From: a virus
Reading direction: 5' to 3' (one strand)
DNA: 25,663 nucleotides
Virus record (IMG/VR): IMGVR_UViG_3300006101_000059
Coordinates: 1 to 25,663 of that record
A program made the position numbers and the translations under genes. How positions within the stretch are numbered: position 1 is the first letter of the stretch; every line of letters begins with the position of its first letter. Positions 5,228 through 24,184 of the stretch are shown piece after piece. Below the pieces are notes generated by a model, which saw only the letters and a list, made by a program, of their open reading frames with translations, did not search any database and had not been told where the DNA came from.

Positions 5228-5786
5228 TTTTGTCTTTATTGACTATGTTTTTGGCTTCTACATCTATATATTTACCCTCAACCTCATCCAAAAGTGACAA
5301 TAATTCACTCTCAACCTCTTCTTTTGTCTGGATTTTGACAGTAACTTCGGTTCTTTTCTTAAATGCATCGACCCCATCTATCTCTCCAAGCGCTCTTAGA
5401 GCTGCAATCTTGGTTTTTACATCCTTAGATGCTTCAACCGAATGCAATAGATGGTTAACTACATAAGTTTTTAGTTCAGATAGTTCATCCACAATAGAAA
5501 CATTCATCTGGGCAACCATGCCAGCTAGCATGGCTAGTGTTTCATTGGGGTATTCATTAAATTTTGGGCGAAACTTGGGGTCAGATGCCATTTGCACAGC
5601 TAAAGACTTAGCTTGCTCGACATTTTCTTGCGTCGGAGCGATAGGCTGCCCTGTTAAATCGGACATTAGCTTTACTACATTAGCCCGCATGTTTAGCTCT
5701 TCTTGTGGCGTGAGAGCAGGAAATGCTTCTTGGGCATTTTTTGGCAGAGGAACGTTCTGCTCAATGTCTGGAATGTACGTGTCCAT
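5220..5786 (-). CDS. Probable terminase small subunit
   Basis: 188 aa, mostly helical. Its position directly before terL, with an 8-bp overlap, is the classic place for the small terminase, which recognises phage DNA and forms a ring that regulates TerL. The N-terminus holds a Pro-rich stretch (IEQNVPLPKNAQEAFPAL). The middle has a long helix (ELKTYVVNHLLHSVEAS) and the C-terminus ends in an acidic/basic helix pair (KRTEVTVKIQTKEEVESELL). I see no clear helix-turn-helix. The ATG at 5784-5786 has no Shine-Dalgarno; a sigma70-like promoter places the transcript start almost on it. An internal ATG at residue 33 has a weak purine site and is an alternative start. The TerS role rests mainly on gene order. 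Confidence 0.6.
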   Translation of the reverse strand: MDTYIPDIEQNVPLPKNAQEAFPALTPQEELNMRANVVKLMSDLTGQPIAPTQENVEQAKSLAVQMASDPKFRPKFNEYPNETLAMLAGMVAQMNVSIVDELSELKTYVVNHLLHSVEASKDVKTKIAALRALGEIDGVDAFKKRTEVTVKIQTKEEVESELLSLLDEVEGKYIDVEAKNIVNKDKND

Positions 5787-5792
5787 GCGCAG

Positions 5793-5822
5793 AGTGTATC
5801 TTAATTGTTAAGTATGTGTAAA
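5793..5822 (-). promoter_or_regulatory. Leftward sigma70-like promoter for the virion operon
   Basis: On the minus strand TTTACA (5822-5817) and TACACT (5798-5793) are separated by 18 bp. The expected transcript start, about 7 bp past the -10, falls at the ATG of the first gene (5786), so the mRNA would be leaderless or nearly so. The -10 is only a 4/6 match. It is the best candidate in the first 100 bp, but activation by a phage factor cannot be excluded. Confidence 0.4.
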
Positions 5823-5857
5823 GATTATTTTTACTCACTAACTATTAACTTAAAAAA

Positions 5858-5880
5858 GGGGACTATTAACTTAAGTCCCC
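5858..5880. repeat. Inverted repeat GGGGACT / AGTCCCC
   Basis: Perfect 7-bp arms (5858-5864 and 5874-5880) around a 9-base loop. The loop and part of each arm repeat the 13 bases found just upstream at 5841. No gene ends here on either strand, so a simple terminator role is unlikely; an operator or a leader hairpin is more plausible. Confidence 0.6.
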
Positions 5881-5907
5881 AAAACACCCTCACGTGTTTA
5901 TAAAAGT

Positions 5908-5950
5908 ATACCCCCGTTTTTTATTTGCGGGTCCCTTTGACGGGGGGTAT
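5908..5950. repeat. Inverted repeat ATACCCCCGT / ACGGGGGGTAT
   Basis: Arms at 5908-5917 and 5940-5950 pair except for one extra G, leaving a 22-base AT-rich spacer with a second small CCCG/CGGG pairing. The outer bases repeat the ATACCCC theme of this control region. Confidence 0.6.
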
Positions 5951-6036
5951 TTCGTTTTGCAGAATTGACACCCGTGTGTGGGAATAAGAAGTGGGGTAGG
6001 GGTATACCCTAATAAATATGTAAAGTATTAAATAGG

Positions 6037-6057
6037 TGAATTGGGGGTCGTGTGTTT
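6037..6057. repeat. Copy 1 of tandem 21-bp repeat (GGGGTCGTGTGTTT core)
   Basis: TGAATT-G-GGGGTCGTGTGTTT. It matches the copy at 6116-6136 at 20 of 21 positions, 79 bp apart. GTAAAGT lies about 15 bp upstream of both copies, so the repeated unit is nearer 40 bp. Possible binding site for a phage regulator. Confidence 0.75.
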
Positions 6058-6115
6058 GGAAAAATAATATTATATAAATCAAGGACTTAGCAATATATAA
6101 GTAAAGTTAATAAAA

Positions 6116-6136
6116 TGAATTAGGGGTCGTGTGTTT
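6116..6136. repeat. Copy 2 of tandem 21-bp repeat
   Basis: TGAATT-A-GGGGTCGTGTGTTT, the second copy of the unit at 6037. It is followed by TTAAGTGAAAAAC and then a hairpin AAGGGG/CCCCTT at 6169-6187. Confidence 0.75.
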
Positions 6137-6339
6137 TAAGTGAAAAACTTTATAGAACAAAGAGTTACAAGGGGTCATACCCCCCTTAATTAAGCAATAA
6201 GTACGTCATAAGTGGTAAATAAATATGGGGGCGAATTTGGAAAATTAAGGATGTTATTTGTGTAAATCTTAGAGTAGAGAGGCGAGATGGAACCATTTCT
6301 AAAAAGCGGGGGGTGGGGGGTCGGACTTCGCGCCCAAAC

Positions 6340-6369
6340 TTGACTTATAAGGGGTGGGTCAGCTATATA
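6340..6369 (+). promoter_or_regulatory. Rightward sigma70-like promoter P1
   Basis: TTGACT (6340-6345), 18-bp spacer, TATATA (6364-6369). Its downstream half (GTCAGCTATA, then ATGGCAG) is shared with the promoter at 6731-6760, which supports both. The predicted transcript begins near 6376, immediately at a 6-bp stem-loop. It drives the 69-aa gene. Confidence 0.6.
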
Positions 6370-6376
6370 GATCATA

Positions 6377-6394
6377 TGGCAGTATGTTCTGCCA
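6377..6394 (+). promoter_or_regulatory. 5'-end stem-loop TGGCAG / CTGCCA
   Basis: Perfect 6-bp stem with a 6-base loop (TATGTT) at the predicted 5' end of the P1 transcript, 7 bp before the Shine-Dalgarno. Such 5' hairpins commonly protect mRNAs from decay. An operator role at the start site is the alternative. Confidence 0.55.
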
Positions 6395-6412
6395 CTTACA
6401 AAGGAGAAGCAG

Positions 6413-6622
6413 ATGTACAAACTATTCTATTCAACCAACATGCAACCTGTTCAAGTCGGTGATGTAGTTCACTTCAGTAATCGTGCTTGGACTGTTGAGG
6501 AGATCAACGAGACACCTAAGTTCCTTGAGACTAAGGTTTGGGTTCGCAGTATGGATGAGCAACACCTGATGATCAACGCATGGCAAGGTGACTTCGGTGC
6601 TCGCTGGGTTCTAACCAAGTAA
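6413..6622 (+). CDS. 69-aa early protein, unknown function
   Basis: 69 aa, first gene of the rightward block and alone behind promoter P1. AAGGAGAAGCAG directly precedes the ATG, the stereotyped ribosome binding site of this phage. The sequence alternates short strands: VQVGDVVHFSNRAWTVEEI resembles a small SH3-like or KOW-like beta barrel opening, followed by TKVWVRSMDEQ and ARWVLTK at the end. It has no cysteines and no membrane segment. I do not recognise a family. As the first early transcript it may be a host-takeover protein, but that is inference from position only. Confidence 0.75.
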   Translation: MYKLFYSTNMQPVQVGDVVHFSNRAWTVEEINETPKFLETKVWVRSMDEQHLMINAWQGDFGARWVLTK

Positions 6623-6629
6623 CACTCAA

Positions 6630-6645
6630 CCCAGCGCAAGCTGGG
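6630..6645 (+). terminator. Hairpin CCCAGC-GCAA-GCTGGG
   Basis: A 6-bp GC-rich stem closed by a GNRA tetraloop, 8 bp after the stop of the 69-aa gene. No T-run follows, so it is either a weak terminator or a 3' stabilising hairpin. Confidence 0.5.
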
Positions 6646-6646
6646 A

Positions 6647-6664
6647 TTGAAACCAGTTACTTGT
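6647..6664 (+). repeat. Copy 1 of 18-bp intergenic repeat
   Basis: TTGAAACCAGTTAYTTGT with C at the Y position. It directly follows a gene-end hairpin and lies 66 bp before a dyad element. The same arrangement recurs at 7536. Possible regulator site or remnant of a duplicated intergenic module. Confidence 0.6.
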
Positions 6665-6712
6665 TGTCGGGCGCGGCTTTGTGAGGGCGTGATCAAGCGC
6701 GCTGTTTAGCTA

Positions 6713-6728
6713 TCCACTTAGGCGTGAA
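6713..6728. repeat. Dyad element, 9/10 copy (TCCAC-N6-GTGAA)
   Basis: TCCAC TTAGGC GTGAA, preceded by the conserved left flank GCTGTTTAGCTA. It ends 2 bp before the -35 of the promoter at 6731, a position suited to control of that promoter. Confidence 0.65.
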
Positions 6729-6730
6729 AC

Positions 6731-6760
6731 TTTACTTAACGACCTTGTGTCAGCTATAAG
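6731..6760 (+). promoter_or_regulatory. Rightward sigma70-like promoter P2
   Basis: TTTACT (6731-6736), 18-bp spacer, TATAAG (6755-6760). Spacing and the sequences GTCAGCTATA and ATGGCAG match P1 at 6340. It abuts a dyad element upstream and drives the gene starting at 6825. Confidence 0.55.
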
Positions 6761-6824
6761 TATTACATGGCAGGCAATTTCGCTTGTCATTAACGCAGTA
6801 CTTCATTTTATGAGGAGAAGCAAA

Positions 6825-7469
6825 ATGGCTACTAAAGCCCTAGCAGTAGAAGTAAAAGATCAGATCACCAGTCTAAAAGATGGTGCTTACAAGCAAGCAG
6901 TAGCAAGCGACAAAATGCGTGGCGTTGCTCGCTATGTTTTAACCACTTGTAAGGGTTTCCCTGACGAAGTAGGCGACGAAGTTAAAGAGCAGTTATATGA
7001 CGGCTATCGTTTACGCTTCAACGAAACCAATCCCGCCAAGCGGTACGCAGTTATCAATGATCATTACCTATTGATCGACGGCTCTAATCCTGATCTTGAA
7101 AAGGAAAAGGAAGTTGTTTTGATTGGTACTGACTACTGTTTTGCATTTAGTCAGCAAGAGTATGGCAAGCTAAAGACTAGCGATCCATACAAGCACGCAG
7201 TCATCAAGGAATGGCGTGACAAGATCAATACCTATTGCTCTAATCGCTTAGGTGATCTCAAGCGTCAAGCTCGTACGATCCTCAATGAGGGTAAACAGAA
7301 AGAGCGTGGTGCTACATTAGATTTTGCTCACCGCATTATTGAAGTATTCAAAGGTGATCAGGGTTTAATTCAGAAGTGCAAAAATGCTTCCAAGCGTGGT
7401 GATACCACTGCTGATGAGAAGCGATTGAAGTTGTCCATTGACGCTTTCATGGTTCAATGGAATAAGTAA
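6825..7469 (+). CDS. 214-aa early protein, unknown function
   Basis: 214 aa. The reading frame extends upstream to 6747, but GAGGAGAAGCAAA just before 6825 and the predicted promoter overlapping the longer N-terminus fix this start. The protein is soluble, helix-rich and basic: an N-terminal helical segment (KDQITSLKDGAYKQAVASDK), a central KEKEVVLIGTDYCFAF strand pair, then long charged helices (NRLGDLKRQARTILNEGK). I recognise it only as a type often seen in uncharacterised aquatic phages. It is monocistronic, between promoter P2 and a very strong terminator, suggesting high, independently controlled early expression. A nucleic-acid-binding role would fit its charge but is inference. Confidence 0.85.
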   Translation: MATKALAVEVKDQITSLKDGAYKQAVASDKMRGVARYVLTTCKGFPDEVGDEVKEQLYDGYRLRFNETNPAKRYAVINDHYLLIDGSNPDLEKEKEVVLIGTDYCFAFSQQEYGKLKTSDPYKHAVIKEWRDKINTYCSNRLGDLKRQARTILNEGKQKERGATLDFAHRIIEVFKGDQGLIQKCKNASKRGDTTADEKRLKLSIDAFMVQWNK

Positions 7470-7474
7470 GACCT

Positions 7475-7509
7475 AGCCCTGCCAGTCCTAGACTGGTGGG
7501 GCTTTTTTT
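7475..7509 (+). terminator. Strong intrinsic terminator
   Basis: A 13-bp stem (7475-7487 with 7491-7503, two G-T pairs) and 3-base loop CTA, followed by a run of seven or more T. It begins 5 bp after the preceding stop. Confidence 0.95.
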
Positions 7510-7535
7510 CGCCCTGATTTTTACAAGCCCCCAAT

Positions 7536-7553
7536 TTGAAACCAGTTATTTGT
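7536..7553 (+). repeat. Copy 2 of 18-bp intergenic repeat
   Basis: TTGAAACCAGTTAYTTGT with T at the Y position, 27 bp after a terminator and 88 bp before a dyad element, matching the order seen at 6630-6728. GCGCG follows both copies. Confidence 0.6.
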
Positions 7554-7610
7554 CTTAGAGCGCGTGTGTGCGTGTGTCATTTAGAATTATCAGATTTGAT
7601 AGTGCAAGGT

Positions 7611-7641
7611 CGCTATTTAGCTTTCCACGATGTAGTGGAAA
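7611..7641 (+). repeat. Dyad element, exact copy with full left flank
   Basis: Left flank CGCTATTTAGCT, then TTTCCAC (7622-7628), loop GATGTA, GTGGAAA (7635-7641): 7-bp perfect arms. This is the best representative of the extended element. As RNA it folds into a 7-bp, 6-base-loop hairpin. Confidence 0.85.
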
Positions 7642-8006
7642 TTGAATTACACATAGTCCCGACGTGACTAGCTTGCCGTTATGTGTTTGACCAAAAAAGT
7701 TCTAAAACCGACTCGGAATTTTTACTACGTCTAGAATTTTTTTATTTAGTAAATTCAAAGACTTACAACGAAAATTCTAAATTCCAATCGGATTAGCAGA
7801 GGATGGGGGGTAAAAACATAAAAAAGGTGGGAGAGCAAGGCTTGTTTTCCCAATGCAAAAATGTAACGCAAGGTATTGTCCTCTCTCAAAATTTATTGGA
7901 ACATAGAATTTTTCTTCTTTTCTTTTATTTATTTAATAATAATAATAATAATATATCTATATAAATCATACACTTAACCCCTCAAAAAACATTAGAAATA
8001 AAGTTC

Positions 8007-8035
8007 CAGACTTTAGTAGACTATTGGTTTATACT
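8007..8035 (+). promoter_or_regulatory. Promoter candidate upstream of tandem-HTH gene
   Basis: CAGACT (8007-8012), 17-bp spacer, TATACT (8030-8035). The -10 matches the two strong promoters further right and the spacing is ideal, but the -35 is poor, so activation or weak basal activity is likely. Confidence 0.45.
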
Positions 8036-8071
8036 TGGAATATTCCGCAAAAAACGGAATTTAATTTCCAA
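8035..8071 (+). promoter_or_regulatory. Nested inverted repeat at the start of the leader
   Basis: Outer arms TTGGAA (8035-8040) and TTCCAA (8066-8071), and inner arms ATTCCG (8042-8047) and CGGAAT (8055-8060) around CAAAAAA. It covers the predicted transcript start of the following gene, so it may be an operator, possibly autoregulatory, or a 5' hairpin. GGAATATTCC at 8037-8046 is an alternative palindrome. Confidence 0.55.
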
Positions 8072-8091
8072 ACTAACAAGAAAGGTAAACC

Positions 8092-8451
8092 ATGTTTACA
8101 AATCAAATTTATAAGTTCAAGAATGAATCACGCACTATGAAGCAGTGGGCACAAAAGACAGGCTTATCAGTAGATGTGTTGCGCAGTCGTTGGAACAAGG
8201 GCAAACGAGGCGATAGTTTATTTGCACCAATCCCTGACCAAGATGAGCAGAACAGTTATTGCGTATACATCACGCATGACACAGGCGATGGAGAAGAAAC
8301 AAAGACTCTCAAAGAATGGGCACAGGAGTTCAACATGAACCCTAAAACTTTAGCCGCAAGGTATGGCAAAGGTGAAAGAGATAGCCACGTATTACTACGA
8401 CCAAAAGGAGTTCATGCCAAAGTCATTAAACAAAGATATCGTATCAGCTAA
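8092..8451 (+). CDS. Tandem helix-turn-helix DNA-binding protein
   Basis: 119 aa with AAAGG seven bases before the ATG. It contains two copies of one module: residues 15-48 (MKQWAQKTGLSVDVLRSRW, then KGKRGDSLFAP) and 72-103 (LKEWAQEFNMNPKTLAARY, then GKGERDSHVLLRP). Each copy reads as helix, turn, recognition helix (S/T-hydrophobic-x-x-R-x-x-x-G). The same module ends the HNH-like protein at 23759, as in HNH homing-type nucleases where it binds DNA; here no nuclease domain is present. Two joined HTH units could read a two-fold symmetric site with one polypeptide. The gene has its own promoter candidate and operator-like repeat, so a phage transcription regulator is the most likely role; the target is unknown. 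Confidence 0.82.
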   Translation: MFTNQIYKFKNESRTMKQWAQKTGLSVDVLRSRWNKGKRGDSLFAPIPDQDEQNSYCVYITHDTGDGEETKTLKEWAQEFNMNPKTLAARYGKGERDSHVLLRPKGVHAKVIKQRYRIS

Positions 8452-10859: not shown

Positions 10860-11933
10860 ATGTCTAAATTAAATTTCAATTCCACAGTAACCATCAACGA
10901 GTTACGCAAAACCATTCCTATAATAGGCTCATACCTCACACCAATCATACTGTCTGAACCTGGTTGTGGTAAGACCTCTCTGTTATCTATGATTCGTCAG
11001 GATTTGGGCGAAGACTATGACTATATCTATGTGGACTGCCCTGTCAAGGATATGTCGGACATCGGTATGACTATTCCAAACCACCAAACCCAAAGCCTCG
11101 AATACTATGTGTCATCTCTCTTCATGCTTGACTCTCCTAAGCCAAAGGTCATTTTACTTGACGAGTTCATGAAGTCTCCCAAGCTATTGCAAGTTATCTT
11201 CACCCGTCTGATGTTGGAAAGAATGGTAGGTGATCGTCCACTACCTAGTGGATCAATAGTTTTCGGGACATCAAACAATGCAAGCGATGGGGTAGGCGAC
11301 ACAATGCTTGCCCATGCTGGTAATCGTGTGTGCATCATGGAGATGAGTAAGCCAACAGTTAATGAATGGTTAGAGTGGTCATCAGCTAATGGTATCTCTC
11401 GTGTTGTTCGTGCTTTCGTTGCGATGTTCCCTCGGACATTGGCAAGTTACAGAGATGGCAACCAAGACGACAATCCGTATGTGTTCAATCCTAAGAAGAC
11501 TGCCCTGTCATTCTGTTCTCCTCGTTCTCTTGCTAAGTGCGATGTGATCGTGAAGAATAGAGATTACTTAGGCGATAACGCTACGATGGTCGCATTGGCT
11601 GGCACTATCGGTGCAAGCGGTGCTGGTGATATGTCAGCGTTCCTATCGTTGGAGAAAACTCTAGTCGATGTGAAGGACATTGTGAAATCTCCAGATAGCA
11701 TTAAAGTTCCCGAAGAAATCTCAGCGCAGTTAATGATTATGTTCCAAGCGGTAGACGTGCTAGAGACACAGGATGAGCTAACGAAGTTCATGACTTTCGT
11801 TAATAAAATTCCTAGTTCAGAGGTGCAAGCGGTGTTCTTTACTATGATGATGCGCAATACAAAGTCTATCAAGTTGGCTCGCAACAATCTGCAGATTGCA
11901 GAGTGGGCTAAGAATAACCATGAGTTGTTTTAA
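10860..11933 (+). CDS. MoxR-type AAA+ ATPase
   Basis: 357 aa; AAGGAGAAGCAA before the ATG. It has Walker A SEPGCGKTS (32-40), a Tyr/Asp-rich strand YIYVDCPVKDMSDIG typical of MoxR/dynein-related AAA proteins, Walker B KVILLDE (96-102), sensor 1 IVFGTSNN (133-140) and an arginine-finger candidate in GNR (154-156). The C-terminal helical lid runs from about 200. Members usually remodel or load a VWA-domain partner, and that partner is two genes downstream. It carries an exact dyad at 11237. Located in the cytoplasm; the substrate is unknown. Confidence 0.9.
   Translation: MSKLNFNSTVTINELRKTIPIIGSYLTPIILSEPGCGKTSLLSMIRQDLGEDYDYIYVDCPVKDMSDIGMTIPNHQTQSLEYYVSSLFMLDSPKPKVILLDEFMKSPKLLQVIFTRLMLERMVGDRPLPSGSIVFGTSNNASDGVGDTMLAHAGNRVCIMEMSKPTVNEWLEWSSANGISRVVRAFVAMFPRTLASYRDGNQDDNPYVFNPKKTALSFCSPRSLAKCDVIVKNRDYLGDNATMVALAGTIGASGAGDMSAFLSLEKTLVDVKDIVKSPDSIKVPEEISAQLMIMFQAVDVLETQDELTKFMTFVNKIPSSEVQAVFFTMMMRNTKSIKLARNNLQIAEWAKNNHELF
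11237..11252. repeat. Dyad element, exact copy, intragenic
   Basis: TCCAC TACCTA GTGGA in the MoxR gene. Here the pairing extends to TCCACTA/TAGTGGA with only CC between, a near-perfect 16-bp palindrome. Confidence 0.8.
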
Positions 11934-11940
11934 TTAACTA

Positions 11941-11956
11941 TCCACGAGGTGATGGA
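11941..11956. repeat. Dyad element, 9/10 copy, overlapping a Shine-Dalgarno
   Basis: TCCAC GAGGTG ATGGA, preceded by TTTAATTAACTA (degenerate left flank). The GAGGTG in the loop is the ribosome binding site of the next gene, so the hairpin could expose or hide it. Confidence 0.65.
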
Positions 11957-11957
11957 A

Positions 11958-12149
11958 ATGGAAATAAGTTATAGCGAAGCGTTTTTAATTGTGTGGGCAT
12001 CAGTGATGACTATTCTGTATGTTACCAAGTGTAATGATATGGAAGGGTTTAAGCAGTTCACAGTTCACAAACTTAAGCGAGTAGCAAGTGGTGATGCCCA
12101 TGTAGTAGATCATGGGGATCGTGTAGAAATTATTGAGAAGAGGAGTTAA
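11958..12149 (+). CDS. Small membrane protein in the MoxR/VWA group
   Basis: 63 aa from the ATG at 11958, chosen because GAGGTG (11946-11951) is then 6-7 bases upstream; a GTG at 11949 and an ATG at 11952 are in the same frame. There is one hydrophobic segment near the N-terminus (AFLIVWASVMTILYVT, 8-23), then a basic amphipathic stretch (FKQFTVHKLKRVASGD) and an acidic end. It would anchor to the inner membrane with its tail inside. It stands between the ATPase and its VWA partner, so it may tether that module to the membrane; inference from position. Confidence 0.68.
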   Translation: MEISYSEAFLIVWASVMTILYVTKCNDMEGFKQFTVHKLKRVASGDAHVVDHGDRVEIIEKRS

Positions 12150-12151
12150 TC

Positions 12152-13450
12152 ATGGAAGTCAAAAACAAACAGGAAGTCCGCTTAAAGAAAGCGCATATTG
12201 CCTTAATGAAACACCACGAGACTGCGCTCTATTCGGGCGTGATGTTGATGGGTAAGAGTGAGGTGAGTGATAATCTTTTTACGGCATACACCGATGGTGT
12301 AAACAAGCGTTACTCTCGACCATTCCTAGAGAAAATCATTAGCGAACCAAAGCTTAGAGGTCTGGTGTTGCATGAGAATCTTCATGTGGCATTGAAACAA
12401 ATCCCTCGTGGTAAAGATATGTGGAAGGAAGATGCCAAGATCGCAAACATGGCGGCGGACTTTGTGGTGAACGACATCATAAAGAATATTACTGGCAAGG
12501 TGGCTGGTGGCAACGAGCAGTTGGTGGAGTTGCCTGATGGTGCGCTATACGATCCGTTCTTTCATAACTGGAATATGCGTGAGGTCTATAACTATATCCG
12601 TAAGGAGAATCCTCAGCGACAAAAACCTCAAGAGGGCGGTAACAGTGGTAACTCTGATGAAGGAGATTCAGATAGCAGTCCATCATCTAGTGGAAAGCAA
12701 GATAAGGGTGATGGAAAGATTACTGCCAATGGTAAGGAATACAACATGGGCGGTGATGGCTTTGACGAACATGACTGGGAGAACATGAATCCCGAAGAGG
12801 TCAAAGAGTTGAACGACAAGATTGACCGAGCCTTGCGTGAGGGTGGTATGTTGGCTGGTCGCATGGGTGGGAAGATTCCTAGATCAATCAGCGATCTGCT
12901 TGAACCCAAGATAGATTGGCGAGAAGCGTTGCGTGAGTTTGTGTCATCTACTATGAAAGGCAAGGATGAGTTCACATGGCGCAGAATGAATAAGCGTCAG
13001 ATGGCAAATGATATTTATATGCCAAGCATGGAGAACGAAACTATCGGCGAGGTGGTCGTTGCTATTGATACGTCGGGTTCGATTGGTGGTAAAGAACTTA
13101 CCGAGTTTGCTACGGAACTGGCATCAATTTGCGATCTTGTGTCGCCTGATGCGGTGCGTGTTCTTTGGTGGGATACCGACGTGCATGGTGAGCAGTTGTT
13201 CAAGTCCGACCAGTATCAATCTATTGCATCGCTACTAAAACCATTAGGCGGTGGTGGTACTCATGTGGGGTGTGTTAGCAAGTATATCAATGAGAAGAAA
13301 ATTAACGCAGAAGCCGTCATCGTGTTTACTGATGGGTATGTGGAGAGTGACATCGAGTGGAATATCGTTCCACCAACCCTGTGGATGATTACTCAGAACA
13401 AAGACTTGGACATTCCATGCGGTAAGAAAGTCATGTTCGGTGATGAGTAA
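12152..13450 (+). CDS. Metallopeptidase-like / VWA-domain protein (DUF2201 type)
   Basis: 432 aa; AGAGGAG before the ATG. The N-terminal domain holds a zinc-protease signature HENLH (74-78), as in the putative metallopeptidase half of DUF2201 proteins. A low-complexity linker follows (about 155-200, rich in G, S, D, N, Q). The C-terminal VWA-like domain (about 298-432) has a complete metal-ion adhesion site: DTSGS (306-310), a Thr after the Gly run (GGGGTH, T370) and TDG (D394). VWA proteins of this kind act with a MoxR ATPase, here encoded two genes upstream. Whether the HExxH is proteolytically active is not visible. The gene carries a 9/10 dyad in the linker coding region. Confidence 0.88.
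   Translation: MEVKNKQEVRLKKAHIALMKHHETALYSGVMLMGKSEVSDNLFTAYTDGVNKRYSRPFLEKIISEPKLRGLVLHENLHVALKQIPRGKDMWKEDAKIANMAADFVVNDIIKNITGKVAGGNEQLVELPDGALYDPFFHNWNMREVYNYIRKENPQRQKPQEGGNSGNSDEGDSDSSPSSSGKQDKGDGKITANGKEYNMGGDGFDEHDWENMNPEEVKELNDKIDRALREGGMLAGRMGGKIPRSISDLLEPKIDWREALREFVSSTMKGKDEFTWRRMNKRQMANDIYMPSMENETIGEVVVAIDTSGSIGGKELTEFATELASICDLVSPDAVRVLWWDTDVHGEQLFKSDQYQSIASLLKPLGGGGTHVGCVSKYINEKKINAEAVIVFTDGYVESDIEWNIVPPTLWMITQNKDLDIPCGKKVMFGDE
12679..12694. repeat. Dyad element, 9/10 copy (TCCAT-N6-GTGGA), intragenic
   Basis: TCCAT CATCTA GTGGA in the low-complexity linker of the VWA gene. It keeps the TAGTGGA right half common to most copies. Confidence 0.5.
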
Positions 13451-18705: not shown

Positions 18706-19077
18706 ATGAGTGAAGACATTAAAAAGATGGAAGAAGAAAGCGTTGACCTAGCTGGTATCTGCGGTGGCGGTGTAGGCATCGTGCTGGCAAGGATGGACAC
18801 GCACCCCGAGGAGTTCCATGCCAATAGTGAGAAGTGGAAGTTCATCTATAAAGATTATTTCCGAGACGCTATGAACGAGACCGAGAAGGGCATGATCTTT
18901 GACAAGATTAAACAGATTCGCAAGAACGAGTTTAATCAGATGGTGTTGCAGACGCTAGTCCCACCACAAGAAGAAGAGTGCGAGACAGAAGAAGACGATA
19001 GCCCGTTCGGTCGTGCGGTAGCAAAAGCTCAAGGTAGTGCAATTTCTTATGCTGGTAAAGGGAGATACAAGGTATGA
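18706..19077 (+). CDS. Paralogue 1 of a three-gene tandem family
   Basis: 123 aa; AAGGAGAAGTAA before the ATG, first gene after a terminator. After a 20-residue acidic start comes GGGVGIVLARMDTHPEEF, a spacer, a long helix with KQIRKNEFNQMVLQTLV and an acidic tail. The VGIVLARMDTHPEEF and F-x-x-x-I/V-M/L-Q-x-L blocks recur in the next two genes. Probably a small helical subunit; the three may form one complex. It overlaps the next gene by 4 bp (ATGA). Function unknown. Confidence 0.8.
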   Translation: MSEDIKKMEEESVDLAGICGGGVGIVLARMDTHPEEFHANSEKWKFIYKDYFRDAMNETEKGMIFDKIKQIRKNEFNQMVLQTLVPPQEEECETEEDDSPFGRAVAKAQGSAISYAGKGRYKV

Positions 19078-19442
19078 ACGGCGGAGTAGAAATATTATTA
19101 GCGAGAATGGAGACGCATCCCGAAGAGTTCTTTACCGACAGTCGGTGGCGCTCGCTCATTATGGATTTTGCAAATGATCTTGATAAAGACGATTTAATGG
19201 CTTTAGACAAGAAGATGAGAGAGTGCCGTCAGCAACAGTTTACCGAACTCATCATGCAAAGACTCATTGGTGAAGAGGATGAGGAACGTAAACTAGCACG
19301 TCGTCATGCGATTAAAACTGTTCCTCAATTTCCTACTGGCACTAGGTTTGCTGATTTAGCAGACAAAGACGAAGACATGGCTGAGGATGGTTTTAGCCCA
19401 GCGCAACGCATGGCAATCAAGAGAGCGAAAGGCGAGATATGA
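19074..19442 (+). CDS. Paralogue 2 of a three-gene tandem family
   Basis: 122 aa; ATGA overlaps on both sides. GGVEILLARMETHPEEF (3-19) is nearly identical to paralogue 1, followed by a helix ending QQFTELIMQRLIGEEDE. The C-terminal 45 residues differ and are acidic (RFADLADKDEDMAEDG). The strict 4-bp overlaps predict equal synthesis with its neighbours. Function unknown. Confidence 0.82.
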   Translation: MNGGVEILLARMETHPEEFFTDSRWRSLIMDFANDLDKDDLMALDKKMRECRQQQFTELIMQRLIGEEDEERKLARRHAIKTVPQFPTGTRFADLADKDEDMAEDGFSPAQRMAIKRAKGEI

Positions 19443-19969
19443 ACTCAGGAGTTGAAATACTTTTACAAAGACTTAAAGATAACCCCGAGTATTTTGGGGT
19501 AGACCCTAGCATGTATGGCTCAAATCATCAGAACAAATGGAGTCCTTTCTTGAGTGAGGTTCTTAATACAGAGTACTTTACCGATGAAGAAAAGCAAGCG
19601 GTCAGGACAGCGTTTAACGATGCGAGACGTGAGAACTTTACCGAGCGCATCATGAAAGCACTTACTGGCGAGGACGAAGTGAGTGAAATGGGAAAGCCAG
19701 TCAGAATCACCAGCACCAATCCATACCACTCAGGGTCAGCGCCGTTAACCATGACTACGATGGGCGGTGCGGGGCAGTCAACAGTATCATTTAACAATGC
19801 TACTAGTTCTATAACGCTAGGACAGACTCAGCTTGCAGAGGCGCAATTAAAAGCGATGATGGATGAATTAAAAATTAGACAACAAGCAAGGAAGGATAGA
19901 GAGCAAGAGCGAGAAAAAAGAAGTAAAACTTTGTACGGCAAACTTCACCAATACTTTTCACCAATATGA
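19439..19969 (+). CDS. Paralogue 3 of a three-gene tandem family
   Basis: 176 aa; the N-terminal SGVEILLQRLKDNPEYFG and ENFTERIMKALTGEDE match the two preceding proteins, so the shared domain is about 75 residues. A Ser/Thr/Gly-rich linker (about 100-130) and a charged coiled-coil tail (IRQQARKDREQEREKR) are added. ATGA overlap with the DNA polymerase start ties this family to replication. Possible polymerase accessory or single-strand binding partner; inference from position only. Confidence 0.82.
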   Translation: MNSGVEILLQRLKDNPEYFGVDPSMYGSNHQNKWSPFLSEVLNTEYFTDEEKQAVRTAFNDARRENFTERIMKALTGEDEVSEMGKPVRITSTNPYHSGSAPLTMTTMGGAGQSTVSFNNATSSITLGQTQLAEAQLKAMMDELKIRQQARKDREQEREKRSKTLYGKLHQYFSPI

Positions 19970-21852
19970 ATCTAATTACCCTAGACTTTGAAACCTACTA
20001 CGACTCCAAGATCAAACTTGGTTTTAAGCATCAGACGACTGAGGAATACATCAGAGACAAGCGCTTTGAAGTAATCGGTGTTGGTGTCAAGATAGGTGAG
20101 GGTGTGACTGAATGGTTTTCTGGTTCACACCTCGACATCCAAAAATACCTTTCCACACTCCCGTGGAAAGATTCTGCTTTGCTTTGCCACAATACTTTAT
20201 TTGATGGCTCTATTCTTGCGTGGAAGTTTGGCATCAAGCCATCTTTTTATTTAGACACGCTTTGCATGGGTCGTGCAATTCATGGTGTGGATGTCGGGGG
20301 TTCTTTATCCTATCTTGCCGAGCGTTATAAGCTAGGTGTTAAGGGTCACGAGGTTGTGTTGGCAGAAGGTAAGCAAATAACTGGTTTCACTTCCGCCGAA
20401 CTCACAGCCTACGGCTCATACTGCATCAACGACGTGGAGTTAACTTTTAAGCTCTTCCAAGTATTGTCGAGCGCGTTTCCACCTGATGAGTTGCTTTTGA
20501 TAGATATGACTTTAAAAATGTTTATCAATCCAATCCTAGAGGTTGACGATGCGCTACTCAATGACCGACTAGAGGAACTTAAGCATGAGAAATTACAGTT
20601 ATTAGGGACACTCAAAGCTACCTTGCAATGTGAGAACGAAGAGCAAGTACGCAAGAAGTTAGCCAGTAATAAACAATTCGCTGCCGTGCTAAAGGAGTTT
20701 GGAGTCGAGCCACCGATGAAAGAGAGCAAGACAACTGGCAAGCAGACCTTTGCGCTGGCAAAAAATGACGAAGGGTTTATAGCGCTAACAGAACACGAAG
20801 ACCCAATCGTCCAACAACTCGCTGCCGTGCGACTGGGAACAAAATCAACTATTGAGGAGAGCAGAATTGAACGATTCATTGACGTGGGATCGAGAAACAA
20901 AGGAAGGTTACCTATACCACTTAAGTACTATGGCGCTCATACGGGGCGGTGGGCGGGGTCGGATAAGGTCAACTTTCAGAACTTACCGTCACGGGATAAA
21001 AAGAAAAAGGCACTTAAAAATGCGGTGGTCGCCCCCGAAGGGTATGCGGTTATCAACTGCGACTCGTCTCAGATCGAAGCTCGTGTGCTTGCATGGCTTG
21101 CGGGGCAAGATGATATTGTTAAACAGTTTGCCAATAACGACGATGTGTACTCTATATTTGCAAGCTCCATCTATGACCAACACATCACTAAAGCGAATCC
21201 TGTCGAACGTTTTGTTGGAAAGACTTGCATCCTCGGGCTTGGATATGGGACTGGCGCATTAAAGTTACAGCACACACTAAAGACTAGTCCGCCAGGCGCA
21301 GACCTCACAGAGGATAAGTGTAAGGAAATAGTTAATCTATACAGAGACACCAACGACATGATTGTCAAACTATGGCGAGAAGGCGACAAAGCTCTAAAGA
21401 TTATGGCTGACTGGCAACCCAAACAAAAACCCTTTTATTATGGCAAACACAAATGTGTGCGAGTCACCCAAGAAGGACTGCAATTACCGAACGGGTTATA
21501 CATTCGCTACCCTGATTTACAGATCACTGATGAGTCTAATGGCAGATACCAATACAAGTCACGCAAAGGCCCCGTGTCTCTATGGGGCGGTTCAGTTGTG
21601 GAAAATGTAGTTCAAGGATTGGCACGGATTATTGTAGGTCAGCAAATGATTAAATTAACTGAGCGCTATCGACCCGTGCTAACTGTGCATGATGCGGCGG
21701 TGTGCGTAGTTCCCGAGGATGAAGTAGATGAGGCTTGTGCATGGATCGTCGAGGTCATGTCTACACCACCTGACTGGGCTAAGGGTTTACCAGTAGCTTG
21801 TGAAGCTCACTTTGGTAAGAATTATGGTGAGATGGAGGAGTGGAAAGCGTGA
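19966..21852 (+). CDS. DNA polymerase family A with 3'-5' exonuclease domain
   Basis: 628 aa, the phage replicase. The exonuclease domain carries DEDD motifs LDFETYY (D7, E9), HNTLFD (D80) and YCIND (152-156). The polymerase domain has HTGRWAGSDKVNFQNLP, motif A CDSSQIEAR (D366), motif B RFVGKTCILGLGYG (415-428) and motif C VHDA (575-577). In motif B the residue equivalent to E. coli Pol I Phe762 is Leu (L423), and motif C has Ala where HDE has Glu. It is shorter than T7 DNA polymerase (704 aa). No 5' nuclease domain. Both ends overlap neighbours by 4 bp. An exact dyad lies in the exonuclease coding region. Confidence 0.96.
   Translation: MNLITLDFETYYDSKIKLGFKHQTTEEYIRDKRFEVIGVGVKIGEGVTEWFSGSHLDIQKYLSTLPWKDSALLCHNTLFDGSILAWKFGIKPSFYLDTLCMGRAIHGVDVGGSLSYLAERYKLGVKGHEVVLAEGKQITGFTSAELTAYGSYCINDVELTFKLFQVLSSAFPPDELLLIDMTLKMFINPILEVDDALLNDRLEELKHEKLQLLGTLKATLQCENEEQVRKKLASNKQFAAVLKEFGVEPPMKESKTTGKQTFALAKNDEGFIALTEHEDPIVQQLAAVRLGTKSTIEESRIERFIDVGSRNKGRLPIPLKYYGAHTGRWAGSDKVNFQNLPSRDKKKKALKNAVVAPEGYAVINCDSSQIEARVLAWLAGQDDIVKQFANNDDVYSIFASSIYDQHITKANPVERFVGKTCILGLGYGTGALKLQHTLKTSPPGADLTEDKCKEIVNLYRDTNDMIVKLWREGDKALKIMADWQPKQKPFYYGKHKCVRVTQEGLQLPNGLYIRYPDLQITDESNGRYQYKSRKGPVSLWGGSVVENVVQGLARIIVGQQMIKLTERYRPVLTVHDAAVCVVPEDEVDEACAWIVEVMSTPPDWAKGLPVACEAHFGKNYGEMEEWKA
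20150..20169. repeat. Dyad element, exact copy, intragenic
   Basis: TTTCCAC (20150-20156), ACTCCC, GTGGAAA (20163-20169): 7-bp perfect arms like the 7622 copy, but without the left flank. It encodes LSTLPWKD of the DNA polymerase. Rightmost exact copy in the window. Confidence 0.78.
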
Positions 21853-22616
21853 GTACAATAGATCAGTCAGAAGAATCACCACGGAACTTGATTAGTCTCA
21901 AGGAGTACGAGGCAAAAAAGTATTTATTACAAGTAGAACTTTTGAAATGGCAAAACCATGTTAAAGAAACTAATACACAACATATCATTATTTTTGAAGG
22001 GCGCGATGCCGCAGGTAAAGGTGGGTCAATTAAGCGATTCATGGAACACCTCAACCCAAGAACCGCAAGAGTCGTTGCCCTCTCCAAGCCCACAGAGCAA
22101 GAAGCGAAAGAGTGGTACTGGCAACGCTACATCAAAGAGTTTCCTAAAGCAGGAGAAATCACGTTCTGGGACAGGTCATGGTACAACCGAGCAGGAGTCG
22201 AGCCTGTCATGGGTTTCTGCACAGTTAACCAAACCAAGCAGTTCTTCAAAGAAACGCCCGTTCTTGAAAAAATCTGGGTCGAAGGAGGAATTAAAATTAT
22301 CAAGTTCTGGTACTCCGTCAGCAAAAAAGAGCAAGCCCGTCGCTTCCAAGAACGTGAAACGCACCCGCTCAAGCAAGGCAAACTCAGCCCGATAGATATT
22401 GCTAGTCAGACTATGTGGGATGAATATACCAAAGCAAAAATACAGATGCTTGATAAGACTAGCACTAAAGAATGTCCGTGGATACAAGTACAATCTGATT
22501 GTAAAAGAAGTGCTAGGATTGCTAGTATGCAGTATGTATTATTGAAAAACGATTACCCTGATCGGAACCTTGAAAACATTGGGGCAATTAACCCAAACAT
22601 CCTTAAAGGAGTCTAG
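21849..22616 (+). CDS. ppk2: Polyphosphate kinase 2 (PPK2-type NTP/NDP phosphotransferase)
   Basis: 255 aa. The start is the GTG at 21849 (GTGA overlap with the polymerase stop), with GGAGGAG eight bases upstream; a GTG at 21840 is in frame but too close to that site. It has the PPK2 signatures: Walker A EGRDAAGKGGSIKR (50-63), Walker B/lid FWDRSWYNRAGVEPVMGF (106-123), the arginine-rich lid QARRFQERETHPLKQ (162-176), KLSPID and W-x-x-Y-x-x-AK (178-197), and the closing SDCKRSARI (216-224). By family knowledge it moves phosphate between polyphosphate and nucleotides. Coupled to the DNA polymerase it could make (d)NTPs from host polyphosphate; the direction and substrate are not visible. Length near class I PPK2. 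Confidence 0.93.
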   Translation: MSTIDQSEESPRNLISLKEYEAKKYLLQVELLKWQNHVKETNTQHIIIFEGRDAAGKGGSIKRFMEHLNPRTARVVALSKPTEQEAKEWYWQRYIKEFPKAGEITFWDRSWYNRAGVEPVMGFCTVNQTKQFFKETPVLEKIWVEGGIKIIKFWYSVSKKEQARRFQERETHPLKQGKLSPIDIASQTMWDEYTKAKIQMLDKTSTKECPWIQVQSDCKRSARIASMQYVLLKNDYPDRNLENIGAINPNILKGV

Positions 22617-22617
22617 T

Positions 22618-22908
22618 ATGGCATCTAAAAAATTGACGGTAAAAGCCCCCGCCATCAAAGAAAAATCGGGCAAAATAGTTAAAGCTCCAAACAAGTCATA
22701 TTCACATGATGAGTTGATTGCGAAAGAAGGTAAGAAAGCAAAGGGCGCTAAACATGAATTTGTTTTGTCCGATGGTGAGATTGCTAATCGCAAACGTGCC
22801 GCAAAAGTAGCTGAAGCTGCTGGCGAAGTTCCAAAGTCAGTCGGTAAAAAACTTCATAGTCATGATCTTCGTAGAGCCGTTGGCATCAAGAAAAAGGCAA
22901 TGAAATGA
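22618..22908 (+). CDS. Lysine-rich basic protein after PPK2
   Basis: 96 aa from the ATG at 22618 (AAAGGAG upstream; the longer frame from 22570 lies inside ppk2). About one residue in four is Lys, spread in K-A, K-K and K-x-P patterns (KKLTVKAPAIKEKSGKIVKAP, KKAKGAKHEFVLSDGE, AVGIKKKAMK). This resembles histone H1-like or other nucleic-acid-coating tails. Because it follows the polyphosphate enzyme by 1 bp, a polyanion-binding or polyphosphate-modified role is conceivable but unproven. It overlaps the next gene by 4 bp. No family recognised. Confidence 0.78.
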   Translation: MASKKLTVKAPAIKEKSGKIVKAPNKSYSHDELIAKEGKKAKGAKHEFVLSDGEIANRKRAAKVAEAAGEVPKSVGKKLHSHDLRRAVGIKKKAMK

Positions 22909-23096
22909 GAGAGCCTATTCCTTTTGTAGGTTTTATTGAAGTTGATGAGGAGCCAACACCGTTGATGACTCAAGAAGATATAGCATCAGTTATGGGAGTT
23001 AGTCGTCAGACTGTGCGCAATATAGAAGCTAGTGCATTTAAAAAAATTCGAAAAGAGTTGTTTAAAAGGGGATACAACAAAGACGATTTGTTGTAA
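22905..23096 (+). CDS. Stand-alone sigma-70 region-4-like HTH protein
   Basis: 63 aa; ATGA overlap with the preceding gene. Residues 20-51 (LMTQEDIASVMGVSRQTVRN, then IEASAFKKIRKEL) match sigma region 4.2, the part that reads the -35 element: the helix-turn-helix with GVSRQTVR-x-I-E and the basic closing helix are intact. No other sigma region is present and the protein is only 63 residues. It could bind -35-like DNA, or compete with the host sigma factor for core polymerase. Its place in the replication operon suits a middle/late transcription switch. Confidence 0.85.
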   Translation: MREPIPFVGFIEVDEEPTPLMTQEDIASVMGVSRQTVRNIEASAFKKIRKELFKRGYNKDDLL

Positions 23097-23105
23097 TATG
23101 TAAAC

Positions 23106-23759
23106 ATGAACTTTACTTGGTCATTCTCCTCTCTTAAAGACTACGTTAACTGTCCTAAGCAGTATCAGGAAGTTAAAGTATTAAAGCACTTTGTTAAATA
23201 CCCAACCGAACAAATGCGTTATGGCACGGAAGTCCATAAAGCCTGTGAAGACTATGTAGGTGAGGGTAAACCCTTAGCTGAAAACTATAAGCGGTTTCAG
23301 CCTGTACTAGATTCACTTAGGGAAATCCCTGGGGTCAAGTATCCCGAACATAGAATGGGACTTGATGCCAATAAAAAAGCGTGTGCTTTTGGTAAGGGCT
23401 ATTGGGTACGCGGCATCGTAGACTTGCTGATTGTGGATGGTGAGCGAGCATTTATTGTGGACTACAAGACTGGCTCAAATCGCTACCCTGACCCCAAACA
23501 GTTAAAGCTGATGGCGCTAATGACCTTTGAGCATTTTCCCGAAGTCAAGCATATCAAAGCTGGTCTGCTGTTTGTGATGCACGAGAGTTTCATAGACGAA
23601 GAATACACACGGGATCAGATTCCTAAGTTGTGGAATCAATTTAGTACAGACCTTGAAAGATTAAACATATCCTACGAAAATGATGTATGGAATCCAAATC
23701 CTAGCCCTCTTTGCCCGTGGTGTCCTGTTAAGACCTGCGAGTTTCATAAGGAAAGATGA
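23106..23759 (+). CDS. PD-(D/E)XK nuclease, Cas4/RecB-like with four Cys
   Basis: 217 aa. RecB-family nuclease: SFSSLKDYVNCPKQY at the N-terminus (C16), H44 in GTEVHKACE, D106 in RGIVDLLIV, the DYK motif (D119, K121) and QLKLMAL helix. It ends with CPWCPVKTC (C203, C206, C211), so C16 and the three C-terminal Cys match the iron-sulfur ligands of Cas4/AddB-type exonucleases. It would resect or trim DNA ends, for recombination or replication. No ribosome site is evident before the ATG. No CRISPR genes are near, so a Cas4 role in spacer acquisition is not implied. Confidence 0.9.
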   Translation: MNFTWSFSSLKDYVNCPKQYQEVKVLKHFVKYPTEQMRYGTEVHKACEDYVGEGKPLAENYKRFQPVLDSLREIPGVKYPEHRMGLDANKKACAFGKGYWVRGIVDLLIVDGERAFIVDYKTGSNRYPDPKQLKLMALMTFEHFPEVKHIKAGLLFVMHESFIDEEYTRDQIPKLWNQFSTDLERLNISYENDVWNPNPSPLCPWCPVKTCEFHKER

Positions 23760-24184
23760 TGCGTACACACGGAATGACTAATTCTTTTGAGTTTAGCGTA
23801 TGGACTGCAATGAAGAAGCGCTGTCTTTATACAAAGCATCCAAAATATCATTTGTATGGTGGTAGGGGCATAACTATCTGTGAAAGATGGGCAAACTTTC
23901 AAAACTTTTTTGACGATATGGGTAAATGTCCTTTTAAAAATGGGTCAATAGATAGAATAGATAGTGATGGAAACTATGAGCCTAGTAATTGTAGATGGCT
24001 ACCAAAAGTAGAACAGTCTGCTAATCGTAGGTGCGTTTTTTCGCTAAATGGTATGAGCCTTGAAGCTTATGCTAAATTAAATGATGTACCAGCAAGCACT
24101 TTAAGACTGCGTATAAAACAAGGTTGGACTAAAGATGCTCTCTTAACAATTAAAAGAGAAAGAACTAATAATGCCTTACGTTAA
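23759..24184 (+). CDS. HNH-like protein with C-terminal HTH module
   Basis: 141 aa. Two ATGs in tandem (23756, 23759) follow AAGGAAAG; the second has better spacing. Residues 1-90 match a family common in phages and bacteria (SFEFSVWTAMKKRC, YHLYGGRGITICERW, SIDRIDSDGNYEPSNCRW), an HNH/His-Me-like fold in which the usual first His is Arg here (SIDRID), so activity is uncertain. Residues 100-130 (SLEAYAKLNDVPASTLRLRI) are an HTH module like the two in the protein at 8092. It may be a homing-type nuclease or its DNA-binding derivative. It lies directly after the Cas4-like gene. Confidence 0.8.
   Translation: MRTHGMTNSFEFSVWTAMKKRCLYTKHPKYHLYGGRGITICERWANFQNFFDDMGKCPFKNGSIDRIDSDGNYEPSNCRWLPKVEQSANRRCVFSLNGMSLEAYAKLNDVPASTLRLRIKQGWTKDALLTIKRERTNNALR

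Follow-up and report, generated by a model that had tools for sequence, protein, structure and literature searches.

A single-copy N-terminal peptide, shared with a small Polynucleobacter protein, on a stand-alone sigma-4.2-type helix-turn-helix protein and on unrelated proteins of freshwater phages

Small phage proteins partly related to sigma region 4 have precedents. With the sigma70 family the protein described here shares the sequence of the region 4.2 helix-turn-helix (sigma region 4, PF04545), the modelled fold and the arginine of the recognition helix; it differs in lacking regions 4.1, 2 and 3, in carrying Gln and Asn at the positions that we take to be equivalent to E585 and Q589, and in standing alone behind a foreign N-terminal tag. 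T4 gp33 retains the side of sigma region 4 that binds the beta-flap, and it does not read DNA. Our 63-residue protein is the converse: it has preserved the half that reads DNA and lost the half that binds the flap. Reviews of gp33, a sigma4-like late coactivator, and of gp55 (PMC2988020, PMC7892883) nevertheless describe proteins like it in being small, phage-encoded and partly related to sigma region 4. A protein of the same kind, a stand-alone 4.2 protein of 43 residues, is encoded by an uncultured phage from Manatee Spring (MW202753); its name, “RNA polymerase sigma factor cnrH”, appears to have been assigned automatically, and the protein is itself untagged while lying directly downstream of a gene that begins with one of the tags discussed below (MTTFTTEDR).

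The tag has its own closest parallels. In viral short-linear-motif mimicry, too, unrelated carriers bear a short motif that is disordered and matches a stretch of a host protein exactly, and the tag here agrees with this in its disorder (pLDDT 53-58 over residues 1-20) and in the presence of the motif in a 59-residue host protein. However, the literature we found on such mimicry concerns mostly eukaryotic viruses, whereas in the present case the host is bacterial, the tag occurs once per phage genome and its carriers are exchanged freely. In phage protein domain mosaicism, unrelated phage proteins share a fragment, but the shared units are whole domains (PMC10684548); the tags are peptides of 9-12 residues, present in single copy and found in a host protein as well. 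The single-copy, carrier-switching property belongs to neither phenomenon.

The window, by which we mean the whole stretch of DNA analysed (25,663 bases), is the virus record itself. The features needed here, all on the + strand, are as follows.

19966..21852, +, DNA polymerase A (family F1), upstream; conserved neighbour by gene order
22618..22908, +, 96-residue lysine-rich gene directly upstream; no family found
22905..23096, +, 63-residue protein with N-terminal tag and stand-alone sigma-4.2-type helix-turn-helix; ATG at 22905 to stop at 23096
22911..22946, +, E tag EPIPFVGFIEVD, residues 3-14; sole copy in the window
22965..23054, +, sigma 4.2-type helix-turn-helix, residues 21-50 (Pfam positions 21-50; AlphaFold2 helices 23-30 and 34-54)
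23055..23093, +, C-terminal part of the long helix with the conserved ...KDDLL tail, residues 51-63 (alignment, AlphaFold2)
23106..23759, +, PD-(D/E)XK exonuclease (family F2), downstream; conserved neighbour of the sigma4-like gene by gene order

The 63-residue reading frame sits in an operon, and its start shares four bases (ATGA) with the stop of the 96-residue gene, which makes translational coupling likely. Relatives of its product (MREPIPFVGFIEVDEEPTPLMTQEDIASVMGVSRQTVRNIEASAFKKIRKELFKRGYNKDDLL) fall into one group at 94-97% identity and another at 63-68%, and dN/dS is far below 1 (0.013/0.21 for the window against L006, 0.063/0.96 for L106 against L107). Relatives at two levels of identity together with so low a ratio show that the gene at 22905-23096 is real and under purifying selection, as the preliminary description had assumed. 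The sigma4-like gene belongs to the replication module and is commonly flanked by the DNA polymerase A and the PD-(D/E)XK exonuclease; a tblastn search with the sigma4-like protein against named phages returned two weak matches and no more. The same replication operon holds a complete polyphosphate kinase 2 gene (PPK2, PF03976, E 1e-84; 21840-22616) with no significant PHROG match. Next to the exonuclease lies an HNH endonuclease gene (23756-24184) that is absent from the relatives G001 and L006, whose DNA is continuous from 23762 to 24168, which suggests a recent mobile insertion. Three tandem paralogues (NSGVEILLxRMxxHPEEF type, family F8) occupy 18706-19969 and are present in related phages too.

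The 63-residue protein consists of two parts, of which the first, residues 3-14, is a disordered mobile tag tied to no particular protein. Relatives begin with MTTFTTEDR (the T tag) followed by EPIPFAGMV (the E tag), whereas the window protein has the E tag only. Both strings also occur on unrelated proteins encoded by other reading frames of the sigma4-like loci. Pattern scans of IMG/VR placed the carriers in at least about 39 unrelated protein clusters from freshwater phages. The clusters were made with the tags masked and by crude linkage; a few carriers are truncated at the end of a contig, and in some clusters unlike proteins have been joined. Judged by eye, the carriers include YqaJ-type exonucleases, NAD-synthetase-like, glycosyltransferase-like and zinc-ribbon-like proteins, coiled coils and membrane proteins. 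Among the matches listed, 115 of 127 distinct E carriers have the tag inside their first 40 residues.

Conservation of the tags is at the protein level. Third codon positions vary nearly freely while the amino acids are kept, conservation at codon positions 1 and 2 extends past the residues used in the search, and in the DNA upstream of MTTFTTEDR a ribosome-binding signal alone stands out. A DNA-level element such as an att site, a promoter or a cassette was rejected on account of the free third positions and of that upstream signal standing by itself. EPIPF also resembles the C-terminus of SSB (DDIPF), a likeness that we set aside because in SSB this end has to be free, whereas the tag lies inside its carrier. 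The unit of about 10 residues is unnamed in the domain libraries searched here, a full-text search for the tag strings found no paper in the literature covered, tblastn of a coiled-coil carrier against named phages gave nothing useful, and Rfam matched neither the window nor the host loci. More N-terminal peptides are common to unrelated phage proteins, among them PPHIVDSGAS, EKDGSFTVNV and EEAPYHPGYE (L131, L133, L137, L203, L316, L232, L317).

Scanning linear contigs of 26-65 kb with position-specific matrices, we found exactly one E tag in all 14, window included, and one T tag in 11 of the 14; shuffled controls, run in eight of these contigs, left the tag scores clearly separated. None of 376 viral loci contained two E or two T tags. 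Moreover, the tag switches carrier: where the sigma4-like protein bears the E tag, no other E tag occurs in the locus (0/16), and where it does not, another gene has it in 38 of 56 loci (Fisher p = 5e-7 for mutual exclusion). The loci were collected through the tag motifs, so that presence of a tag is biased, whereas copy number and exclusion were not chosen; polymerase-related phages without any tag do exist.

The tags also occur in a bacterial protein. The T pattern matched 21 times in 84,980 prokaryote species genomes, where about 0.5 matches would be expected by chance under uniform composition; most lie in Polynucleobacter or in betaproteobacterial MAGs. Two were phage-like contigs and the other 19 were a chromosomal protein of 59 residues (MTTFTTEDRELVEKEPIPFYGYCYLTDP...VEYRVDDSSEDLED) that contains both T and E, the E positions having played no part in its retrieval. 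In an alignment of 17 sequences both tags were conserved parts of the protein, and nonsynonymous change per codon was 0.06 in the E motif versus 0.44-0.50 in the flanks; after the common core the phage consensus EPIPFAGMVD and the host form EPIPFYGYC differ. Most of the host protein is disordered in its model, the T tag coinciding with a short helix, and Pfam and NCBIfam returned nothing of note for it. Among sequenced genomes the protein is almost confined to Polynucleobacter, where its gene was detected at E <= 0.01 in 21 of 121 genomes; of 299 genomes sampled from the family seven had it, most of them already in the genus samples or the Polynucleobacter loci. Since the gene is found in so few genomes, the partner of its product may be patchy too. 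The tag sharing, together with a similar GC content (42.4% in the window, 40-41% in the host loci), makes Polynucleobacter the probable, though not certain, host of the window phage.

A divergent gene for an 80-residue protein lies about 300 bases from the 59-residue gene and co-occurs with it in 11 of 11 cases (p 3e-9); the similarity of this protein (L393:4941-5177) to ptaRNA1_toxin is weak and not significant. The 59-residue gene and its relatives are preceded by a structured leader RNA of about 76 nt with some covarying pairs (L393:5379-5455, that is G031:C1:845379-845455), which also precedes other small reading frames (L490, L494). It has no Rfam match at gathering scores, was not found in the phage contigs, and is possibly a new RNA family.

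Our preferred reading, to which we give a probability of roughly one half, is that the tag mimics the host protein, acts in trans whatever its carrier, and is here mounted on a 4.2-type DNA-binding protein. The sequences firmly establish the two parts of the protein, the single copy, the change of carrier, the conservation at the protein level and the copy in the host; binding to DNA, action in trans, the target and the host genus are inferred from them. A peptide present once in each tagged phage, on any one of dozens of unrelated proteins, and indifferent to carrier, position and neighbor, fits action in trans; a sorting signal acting in cis would hardly behave in this way. That the tag also occurs in a host protein under constraint suggests binding of phage tag and host protein to the same host partner. 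The phage peptide would then occupy the partner of the 59-residue protein and thereby mimic or block that protein; judged from the shared sequence, the phages appear to imitate a protein of the host. More tentatively, and with the odds somewhat against it, the tag may represent a phage element of a new class, in which each genome encodes one effector peptide, 9-12 residues long, that rides on whatever early protein is convenient. Such a peptide would pass from carrier to carrier among unrelated phages of a single host genus, and would derive from, or be common to, a small regulator of the host, which it would mimic or neutralize. Phage genes are annotated by their domains, and the tag is a conserved unit outside the domain libraries searched that nevertheless spans many freshwater phages and their probable host. 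Should the tag act in trans on a host protein, it would show how an inhibitor peptide can be delivered free of any set carrier, tie uncultured phages to Polynucleobacter from sequence alone and lead to a host target.

The tag could instead act in cis, docking each carrier at a common site such as the replisome, the polymerase or the membrane. Many of the carriers are indeed replication or early proteins, including the YqaJ-type exonucleases and the sigma4-like protein itself, and in most of them the tag is short, disordered and N-terminal. We nevertheless consider docking unlikely, since the carriers extend to proteins as unlike as those read as NAD-synthetase-like, glycosyltransferase-like and membrane proteins, each genome has a single copy, and in other phages the sigma4-like family lacks the tag while another gene bears it. 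A docking tag used in several copies was rejected because no phage locus has two.

It could also be argued that the tags are neutral leaders, gene starts or recombination joints spread by phage recombination with no function of the peptide. The N-terminal elements are shared and combined in various ways (MTTFTTEDR, SGAS, EKDGSFTVNV, EEAPYHPGYE, EPIPFAG), and deletion by recombination between repeats could reduce a tag to a single copy. This explanation appears quite improbable to us: synonymous sites vary while the amino acids stay, conservation of the upstream DNA is limited to the ribosome-binding signal, the E tag also lies within 20 residues of the C-terminus in 17 of 127 distinct E carriers among the matches listed, and the 59-residue host protein is strongly constrained.

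The second part of the protein is the sigma-like one. Pfam Sigma70_r4 (PF04545) matches with E 5.7e-9 and 35.8 bits (curated cut-off 24.1), covering only positions 21-50 of the 50 in the profile, that is the 4.2 helix-turn-helix (residues 21-50). No other sigma region was matched by Pfam, and the region 4.2 helix-turn-helix first described is borne out. Sigma region 4 as a whole is not complete, however, for the protein has no region 4.1: the match begins at profile position 21 and the model has no helix before residue 23. The AlphaFold2 model, built from 32 relatives, places helices at 23-30, 34-54 and 59-62, with a confident middle (block means 89-92). A sequence search of the PDB led to sigma region 4 of SigA, RpoD and RpoS. 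Comparison of the fold with known structures agreed: the best Foldseek matches came mostly from sigma region 4 of polymerases with solved structures (TMq up to 0.64; against sigma-S, rmsd 1.1 across 43 columns). None reached E <= 0.001, which is no surprise in a domain of this size. The helix-turn-helix core and an acidic C-terminal tail are kept in the family of 72 non-redundant stand-alone members gathered from phage loci. In a hand-counted alignment, using sigma70 numbering, the recognition-helix arginine R584 is kept and the equivalents of E585 and Q589 are presumably Gln and Asn, so that the DNA site is probably not TTGACA.

Residues 21-62 are a sigma-4.2-type helix-turn-helix reduced to its minimum, in which the recognition helix is extended and region 4.1 is missing. 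The absence of region 4.1, and of sigma region 2 (PF04542) from 19 related contigs in which controls were detected, indicates that the protein is probably a small DNA-binding regulator and not a sigma factor. With DNA binding assumed from the fold, it would most likely act from the DNA on genes of the phage itself, by recruiting host RNA polymerase or by blocking it, and not as a sigma subunit. A sigma-type factor, either replacing or displacing sigma region 4 on the host polymerase to reach phage promoters or serving as half of a split sigma, was rejected as the leading idea and is very doubtful, for its clear relationship to sigma 4.2 (Pfam, PDB sequences, fold search), its presence in 11 of the 14 contigs of 26-65 kb, window counted, and the lack of any other sigma or PF00940 polymerase in the related contigs searched are set against the missing beta-flap binding part, the missing region 2 and an N-terminus that is a tag common to unrelated proteins instead of a polymerase-binding domain.

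The preliminary description had proposed that the protein redirects host polymerase as a sigma or displaces the host sigma region 4. Neither is supported: region 4.1, needed for seating on the beta-flap, is lacking in sequence and model, and no region 2 partner was found in the 19 contigs. Displacement may still occur but is made less likely by the missing region 4.1. It had also noted that no phage RNA polymerase was in view: the single-subunit type (PF00940) was indeed unmatched in nine related contigs, which is weak evidence as no control was detected there either. What stands is a helix-turn-helix protein that probably regulates transcription; what was overlooked is its conserved N-terminal tag (residues 3-14). 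No ArpU/RinA-type late activator model appeared among the best 25 NCBIfam matches, and sigma70-like sites over 5600-8200 numbered 8 against 7.1 expected from shuffles, with no enrichment in the 5787-6412 region. In these phages the stand-alone 4.2 protein is a common regulator, apparently unstudied, and bears on the control of host polymerase.

Elsewhere in the window, the divergent intergenic region between the virion and early blocks contains a direct repeat, TTAAATAGGTGAATTGGGGGTCGTGTGTTT (6028-6057 and 6107-6136, 83%), a candidate operator or origin. At 7475-7503, 3' of an early gene, lies a site that strongly resembles an intrinsic terminator, with a stem of 13 pairs and a run of T. In the early block, 10860-13450 encodes a MoxR-like ATPase and a VWA-like protein (phrog_1297, phrog_1314), for the second of which the PHROGs name, HNH endonuclease, looks wrong. 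The virion block includes a gene for a GroES-like co-chaperonin (518-931, phrog_3188).
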